This document shows, one piece after another, positions 36,576-38,237 of a stretch of DNA of 38,865 nucleotides (position 1 is the first letter of the stretch; each line of letters opens with the position of its first letter). Origin of the DNA: a virus; the IMG/VR virus record IMGVR_UViG_3300025327_000008, positions 1-38,865 of that record; one strand, written 5' to 3'. Under the pieces are notes generated by a model that worked only from the letters and a program-made list of their open reading frames with translations, did no database searches and was not told where the DNA came from. The position numbers and the translations under genes were made by a program.

Positions 36576-37393
36576 TGCGCTATCATGGCGGCAAATTTAA
36601 AATTGCCCCCTGGATAATCCAGCATTTCCAAGCGCACGATGTATATGTAGAGCCGTTCGGTGGAGCTGCATCAGTGTTGATGTGCAAGCGGCCAAGCCGT
36701 GCCGAGGTTTATAACGATTTAGATGGTGAAATTGTCAATGTGTTTAGGGTGCTCAGGGAACCCGCACAAGCTGCAAGGTTGGCCGATTTATGCTTCTTAA
36801 CGCCATATTCGCGCGATGAAATGGAGTTGGCCAATGAGAAATCTACAGACCCGGTCGAGCAGGCCAGGCGTACACTATTCCGCGCCTGGGGGAGCTTTGG
36901 CAGCGCAGGCGCCACTCGTGGCCGCACGGGCTTCCGGACATATACGAAGCCGGACGCTAGGTATACTCCGGTGTCGGCTTCATGGAATCGGATGCCGGCA
37001 GTCATTTCAAAGTTCAGCGCCCGGCTAAAAAGTGTGATCATCGAGAACCGCCCGGCCATCGAGGTTATGAGGCAGCACGATACCCGGGACACCCTGCACT
37101 ACGTTGACCCGCCGTATCTTCCAGAGACACGGACATTTGATGGTGGTCGTTATTATCGCTTCGAAATGTCCGCAGATGGGCACCAAGAATTACTGGATTG
37201 CATTAAGTCTCTGTCCGGAGCCGTGATTGTCAGCGGGTATTACAGCGACATGTATGGCCGGCAATTATCGGATTGGAAAATGGTACGCTGCAGCACCAGT
37301 GGATCATCGCGGTTTGGAAGTGTCAAAAGAACAGAATGCTTATGGATCAAACCGGGGCAACATGCAGGGCAAATGATGCTATTTGGAGGCTGA
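36575..37393 (+). CDS. DNA adenine methyltransferase (Dam / D12 class)
   Basis: 272 aa from the ATG at 36575, where the family-typical start MRYHGGKFKIAPWII begins. Motif I VEPFGGAASVL (AdoMet binding) and motif IV VDPPYLPETR (catalytic DPPY) are present, and the helical specificity region lies between. The target sequence is not readable. The C-terminus ends in QMMLFGG, a pattern like the sliding-clamp binding motif QxxLF. It may protect phage DNA from host restriction. Confidence 0.9.
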   Translation: MRYHGGKFKIAPWIIQHFQAHDVYVEPFGGAASVLMCKRPSRAEVYNDLDGEIVNVFRVLREPAQAARLADLCFLTPYSRDEMELANEKSTDPVEQARRTLFRAWGSFGSAGATRGRTGFRTYTKPDARYTPVSASWNRMPAVISKFSARLKSVIIENRPAIEVMRQHDTRDTLHYVDPPYLPETRTFDGGRYYRFEMSADGHQELLDCIKSLSGAVIVSGYYSDMYGRQLSDWKMVRCSTSGSSRFGSVKRTECLWIKPGQHAGQMMLFGG

Positions 37394-37397
37394 TGTG

Positions 37398-38237
37398 ATG
37401 GACTACATTGAAACCCCTAGCGGGCTTGTTTTGCCAAAGGACACGGCGAGGCGGCACTACCAGAAAAGCAGACGGCCAAAGGCCGTCGATCTATTTTGTG
37501 GCGCAGGGGGCATGAGCCTGGGCTTGATCATGGCCGGCTATGAGGTCGTGGCCGGGGTGGATGCCGAAGCGAAGGCGGCAATGTGCTACATGACCAATCT
37601 GGGGGCCTATCCATGCAAATTTCACTTCGTCGCAGATGCTGACTTTGAGGCCATGACAAAGGCGATTCAGGGAGGAGCTAAAACCTGGTCGGAAATTCGC
37701 AATTTGGAGTCAGGCGGTAACGGAAAAATCGTTAAAAGCGTTCCGGTGTCAGGATCCGGCTGGATCTCCCATGCGCCGGCAGGGACTCCGGGCGTCGGGC
37801 ATTTCTGGCTGGGCGATATCCGCAGGATCACGGGCGTGGAGATCCTGGCAGCGCTCGGCATGGAGATCGGCGAACTAGACCTGGTGGCCGGCGGGCCGCC
37901 ATGCCAGGGATTCAGCGCGGGCGGGAAGCGCGACGTGATGGACCCGCGCAACAGCCTGGTGTTCGAGTTCGCGCGCCTGGTGTGCGAGATGAAGCCCAAG
38001 TCGATCGTCATGGAGAACGTGCCGGGGATTGTGAACATGGTGACACCGGACGGCGTGCCGGTGCTGGATGCCTTCTGCCGCATCCTGGAAGACGGCGGGT
38101 TTGGCGGCTACAACGCGTTCAGGCAGTCAATGAAGCAGCAAGGCTATGCGGGCCTGTTGCGCGGCGGAAAGGCGAAACAAAAGGAAAAGCAACCTGCTGA
38201 GACGGTCAAAGACAAAGAACAACTGAGCCTGTTCTAA
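37398..38237 (+). CDS. C5 cytosine methyltransferase, short form
   Basis: 279 aa from the ATG at 37398 (GGAGG upstream, better than a TTG at 37383). Motif I is VDLFCGAGGMSLGL, motif IV GGPPCQGFS (catalytic Cys), motif VI VMENVPG. A roughly 70-residue insertion lies between motifs I and IV. After motif VI only about 70 residues remain, so the usual target-recognition region and motifs VIII-X are missing or unrecognisable. The last residues are QLSLF, the consensus for beta-clamp binding. Phage relatives with the same short C-terminus exist to my knowledge, so it may be functional. Confidence 0.85.
   Translation: MDYIETPSGLVLPKDTARRHYQKSRRPKAVDLFCGAGGMSLGLIMAGYEVVAGVDAEAKAAMCYMTNLGAYPCKFHFVADADFEAMTKAIQGGAKTWSEIRNLESGGNGKIVKSVPVSGSGWISHAPAGTPGVGHFWLGDIRRITGVEILAALGMEIGELDLVAGGPPCQGFSAGGKRDVMDPRNSLVFEFARLVCEMKPKSIVMENVPGIVNMVTPDGVPVLDAFCRILEDGGFGGYNAFRQSMKQQGYAGLLRGGKAKQKEKQPAETVKDKEQLSLF

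Follow-up and report, generated by a model that had tools for sequence, protein, structure and literature searches.

Clamp-binding-like peptides end two neighbouring phage DNA methyltransferases, one of them a short cytosine enzyme

Results

The stretch of DNA analysed here (the window) is the virus record IMGVR_UViG_3300025327_000008, 38,865 nucleotides in length. Two DNA methyltransferase genes lie on its plus strand with a gap of 4 bases between them: one for a D12/Dam-like N6-adenine enzyme of 272 aa (36575..37393; ATG at 36575, stop at 37393), and one for a short C5-cytosine enzyme of 279 aa (37398..38237; ATG at 37398, stop at 38237). A DnaD-like helicase loader gene begins 10 bases past the cytosine enzyme gene; its start portion (38248..38865, plus strand; phrog_1701, E=2.7e-21) runs to the end of the window, and the frame resumes at positions 1-530, in the same phase, via a 45-bp repeat. 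This tandem repeat sits within the loader gene, encodes GGSGGGSREGPQTPS and is identical at both window ends (1-93 and 38708-38865). Because the repeat occurs at both ends and the reading phase of the loader is kept, the record closes on itself; it is probably a whole genome, the assembly of which probably broke inside the repeat.

Immediately 5' of the methyltransferase genes is a nucleoside deoxyribosyltransferase-like gene (36075-36575; phrog_12607). Taken with a second gene, thymidylate kinase-like and located at 26059-26619, it may point to a function in nucleotide metabolism or in modifying DNA. Upstream of the methyltransferases, positions 33804-34574 encode a radical SAM protein (Pfam, 7.5e-07); the nearest NCBIfam entries are the PA0069/Rv2578c families, matched far under the cut-off. 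No restriction enzyme was recognised among the searched window neighbours of the two methyltransferases, and nuclease-fold matches were rare among the neighbour genes of their relatives.

The adenine enzyme passes the gathering score of PF02086 (66.5 bits versus 22; E=3.9e-18), matches phrog_56 (E=2.9e-63) and reaches 53 bits on the NCBIfam dam model, below the cut-off of 115. It shares 47-61% identity with 33 viral relatives. D178, P180 and Y181 of its catalytic DPPY motif (residues 178-181; 37106..37117, plus strand) are invariant in alignments A4 and A6. The AF2 model has a pLDDT of 86.7, and a value of 52 over the last residues suggests an exposed or disordered segment there.

The cytosine enzyme is a divergent short relative of PF00145 (E=6.7e-28) and no standard member of that family. 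Its best PF00145 stretch spans profile positions 48-132 of 324 (motifs I to VI), its TIGR00675 score of 78 falls below the cut-off of 100.65, and its predicted structure aligns with residues 10-145 of M.HhaI and the equivalent part of HaeIII and 3g7u (Z 9.6-12.8). Motifs I, IV (PCQ) and VI (ENV) of C5 enzymes are all present. The SAM-binding motif I, DLFCGAGG (37488..37511, plus strand), is conserved in the 44-member alignment A3; the PPCQ of motif IV with its catalytic cysteine (37896..37907, plus strand) is invariant in all members; and in motif VI (38013..38021, plus strand) E and V are invariant, with N in >90%. By profile, structure and family alignment alike, the enzyme lacks motif VIII, the TRD and motifs IX-X, and the aligned short family contains no motif VIII QxRxR. 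Particular to the short family is a variable insertion between motifs II and III (37602..37787, plus strand; alignment A3), modelled by AF2 as a strand (69-77) and a helix (80-104) with low confidence at about 91-120; this insertion is a candidate DNA-contacting part. Ahead of the C-terminal peptide lies a variable, charged linker, predicted to be disordered (38142..38219, plus strand), with alignment columns of about 1.2-1.6 bits as against at least 3 in the core and, in the AF2 model, a pLDDT of about 50 across the final 30 residues.

The first-pass annotation of the window had missed this loss of motif VIII, the TRD and motifs IX-X. The gene is nevertheless not broken, as the same architecture recurs in more than 50 relatives from viruses, prophages and plasmids, with identities as low as about 38%, and all of the 44 divergent members aligned keep PPCQ and the motif VI glutamate. 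A mycobacterial prophage and cyanobacterial genomes are among the carriers. With motif VIII and the TRD gone, methylation by the short enzyme is uncertain, and the protein may be inactive or have another role. The short protein could also be one half of a split methyltransferase, its TRD and motifs VIII-X being encoded elsewhere; complementing C5 fragments of M.SssI are known from the laboratory (PMC3404938). This reading was dropped, and we hold it to be very unlikely: the 44 short C5 loci have no conserved neighbour that could serve as companion gene (the largest neighbour family covers 4 loci), and the neighbours in the window are the DnaD-like loader and the D12 enzyme.

Both methyltransferases end in peptides that resemble clamp-binding motifs. 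By translation, the cytosine enzyme ends ...KDKEQLSLF, with QLSLF (38220..38234, plus strand) at the extreme C-terminus, and the adenine enzyme ends ...GQHAGQMMLFGG, that is, GQMMLFGG, in which QMMLF (37370..37384, plus strand) is followed by GG and the stop. The first-pass annotation had named these same endings and described QLSLF as the beta-clamp consensus; the residues are exact, the two motifs fall at the coordinates it gave, and QLSLF matches the Dalrymple consensus QL[SD]LF. The clamp motif is also given as Q-phi-x-[LM]-[FL] or Q-phi-x-[LM]-x-[FL], and QMMLF fits the first of these, with an aliphatic second residue (PMC11139829). Among 46 mechanically chosen window ORFs, only the two methyltransferases carry a C-terminal Qxx[LM]F.

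Conservation of the motif among relatives had been set as a test of clamp docking, and it held, most clearly in the cytosine family. We sampled 47 short C5 members <70% identical and took the last 25 residues as the tail. Qxx[LM]F occurs in 25/47 tails, against a mean of 0.2 and a maximum of 3 in 3000 tail shuffles, and the penta- or hexapeptide clamp motif occurs in 33/47 (shuffle mean 1.1, maximum 7); none of the 3000 shuffles reached either count. At 50% identity the strict motif is found in 8/20 and the wider motif in 12/20. In aligned tail columns, Q is present in 35/42 members, L or M in 39/41 and F in 28/41. The motif was far rarer in the controls, with 1/450 internal 25-residue blocks of the same proteins and, within the last 25 residues, 5/619 neighbouring ORFs of related loci, although these ORFs were mechanically chosen and full-length C5 enzymes make the fairer control. 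Full-length relatives out of the same scans had the motif in 0/90 cases, with no enrichment, and the tail thus accompanies the short architecture.

The peptides themselves vary (for example QLQLF, QQKLF, QADLF, QLDLF, QMSLF, QISLF, QDALF, QSALPL and QLAMAL), and the linkers ahead of them bear no mutual resemblance. Of the 14 tails that do not match, the majority come close to the motif (QLSLE, QLSLD, QLALE, EPSLF, EPTLF, RPSLF and ELELNF), leaving about 5-6/47 with no recognisable motif. Three members added later end in QPALF, QLAMSF and QEQMF, a cyanobacterial plasmid copy ends in QLSLFE, and the mycobacterial prophage pair has QDALF and QLSLG.

The tail motif of the adenine enzyme is conserved clade-wise; it is patchier than that of the C5 family and not universal. 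In 34 nonredundant D12 relatives, the strict motif is present in 10 (shuffle mean 0.23) and the loose motif in 19 (shuffle mean 1.68). On a D12 tree of 89 rows, computed with the tail left out, the distribution of motif-like and plain tails takes 9 changes, where the motif-like class includes xGLF variants without Q. The window's own clade is motif-like in 5/5 tails (QPQLELEA, QRDMF, QCDMF, QRDMF and QMMLF). Elsewhere, the enzyme of Caulobacter phage Sansa ends QKDLFTHT and that of Bordetella phage PHB09 AGLFPPEIAA, and the enzyme of Yersinia phage 29.18 has no tail motif. Roughly half of the D12 tails have no recognisable clamp motif, which speaks for the reading that these are ordinary orphan phage methyltransferases whose tails match by chance or composition. 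In the short C5 family, all four controls (shuffles, internal blocks, neighbouring genes and full-length C5 enzymes) are contrary, and a chance origin of the tail is rejected; for the pair of enzymes as a whole, we regard coincidence as extremely improbable.

Several observations bear on what the tails might bind. The genome is self-closing and encodes a DnaD-like loader, and searches of it turned up no beta clamp, DNA polymerase A or Pol III alpha; this replication setting is host-dependent and makes the host beta clamp the likely partner. Since the clamp was singled out by motif resemblance alone, the tail could instead bind a phage replication protein, a protease adaptor or an SSB-like site. 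The conserved residues (Q, L/M and F/L) and their penta- and hexapeptide spacings coincide exactly with the clamp motif, though, and PIP-box and SSB-type tails were found in 0/47 short C5 members. There is no conserved companion gene within 3 kb, and carriage by a mycobacterial prophage and by cyanobacteria requires a shared partner to be near universal. A partner other than the clamp is accordingly unlikely.

In one phage (L129), a beta-clamp-like gene lies directly upstream of the short C5 gene (PF02767, E=8.9e-11), and its PDB matches are all beta clamps. From a likely internal start the protein (L129:1716-2612) is about 230 aa and appears shorter than a normal clamp. A second phage has a weak clamp-like gene (PF02767) located elsewhere. 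PF02767 matched nothing in the 43 phages that carry other C5 relatives, and the clamp N-terminal domain PF00712 was found in none of 42 records. With one clear case, the adjacency is suggestive only. Phage-encoded polymerase was dropped as a discriminator because its absence is common to controls: PolA was found in 0/42 short C5, 0/33 D12 and 2/24 control phages, a difference that is not significant.

The short C5 genes sit in a replication and recombination setting: genes for integrases, RecT, helicases and replication initiators are found next to them, as are other methyltransferase genes. A general pairing of adenine and cytosine enzymes was considered and dropped, as a D12 enzyme is present in only 4/42 short C5 records. 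Another adenine and cytosine pair is present at L267 and L275 (Bordetella phage PHB09), in which the cytosine enzyme is full-length and has no clamp-like tail. A helicase/N4-N6 methyltransferase (L145:30-1421) in a phage with a short C5 enzyme also ends in QISLF, and clamp-like tails may thus reach a third methyltransferase family. Adjoining another short C5 gene is a 300-aa protein with no Pfam match and QLDLF near its C-terminus (L137:3884-4786).

Discussion

The first-pass annotation had proposed that both enzymes ride on the host sliding clamp and methylate new phage DNA at the fork. The docking part of this proposal is a prediction with strong support from sequence, namely the retention of the motif in relatives and its absence from full-length C5 enzymes. 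We consider it highly probable that the cytosine enzyme docks on the clamp, and probable that the adenine enzyme does so. That both are replication-coupled phage DNA methyltransferases, clamp-docked via the C-terminal motif, is a reasonably likely reading, graded below docking because the activity of the short C5 enzyme is in doubt.

We infer binding, methylation, timing at the fork and an anti-restriction benefit along the following lines. Each enzyme would comprise a catalytic core and a C-terminal clamp motif, joined in the cytosine enzyme by a disordered linker, and the motif would insert into the host beta sliding clamp at its hydrophobic cleft. The DnaD-like loader would recruit the host replisome, the phage seemingly encoding neither a polymerase nor a clamp. 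Both enzymes would then be held on fresh phage DNA by the clamps that remain after each fork has passed, allowing this DNA to be modified ahead of restriction enzyme action. For the short C5 enzyme, the clamp may provide much of the DNA binding in place of the lost target-recognition half. A bolder version, which we offer tentatively and think rather doubtful, is that the C5 family shed its target-recognition half and uses the clamp for DNA engagement, yielding a relaxed-specificity, replication-coupled cytosine modification of phage DNA that would be an independently evolved counterpart, in bacterial viruses, of DNMT1-PCNA coupling.

The tails might alternatively serve to occupy the clamp, competing with host polymerases and regulators and slowing host replication, with methylation secondary or, in the short C5 enzyme, absent. 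The Caulobacter toxin SocB is a precedent (PMC9690074), and the loss of motif VIII, the TRD and motifs IX-X is what a non-methylating protein could show. Against this, the invariance of PPCQ and the motif VI glutamate across 44 divergent members indicates that catalysis is under selection, and the phage seems to need the host replisome for its own replication. We think clamp occupation improbable as the main function and retain replication-coupled methylation as the preferred reading.

The clamp motif is textbook knowledge, and its use by mobile elements and the DNMT1-PCNA interaction are known. Bacterial and phage DNA methyltransferases carrying the motif appear to be new: in the open-access literature we found none described earlier as binding the clamp (subscription papers may differ), and the text of a 2024 clamp review has no word starting with "methyl" (PMC11139829). 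Such enzymes are usually pictured as roaming free and finding their sites by a recognition domain. If the proposal is true, a clamp-docking tail would mean that phages couple modification to replication, which would account for how they might stay ahead of restriction when replicating fast, and the short enzymes would form a compact class of clamp-recruited methylases.

In catalytic terms, the two enzymes relate to known families in different ways. The adenine enzyme shares the full catalytic architecture and DPPY motif of Dam-family D12 enzymes (PF02086, phrog_56) and differs in its C-terminal clamp-like tail and its score below the NCBIfam dam cut-off. The cytosine enzyme has motifs I, IV and VI and the catalytic-part fold of M.HhaI-type C5 enzymes (PF00145); unlike them, it lacks motif VIII, the TRD and motifs IX-X and has the motif II-III insertion and the clamp-like tail.

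In their tails, both resemble Pol II, Pol IV and mycobacterial DinB1, which have a short Q-[LM]-F peptide at or near the C-terminus (PMC11139829, PMC9346131), although those proteins are polymerases and ours are methyltransferases. M. smegmatis DinB1 docks on the clamp by QESLF, to which the QDALF of the mycobacterial prophage is close (PMC9346131). Tn7 TnsE, IS608 TnpA and the IS1634 transposase also dock on the beta clamp (PMC5371812). Like these, the phage enzymes would belong to a parasitic element docking on the host clamp at the fork, with transposition targeting as the outcome there and DNA methylation here.

In eukaryotes, DNMT1 binds PCNA via a PCNA-binding motif (PMC9690074, citing Iida 2002). 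The likeness to that interaction is the coupling of a DNA methyltransferase to a replication clamp, by which new DNA becomes methylated once the fork has passed, as we propose for the phage. The docking parts are not homologous, QxxLF and the beta clamp here corresponding to a PIP box and PCNA there. DNMT1 has an N-terminal regulatory part. DNMT1 also carries out maintenance methylation in cells, whereas the enzymes described here belong to a phage.
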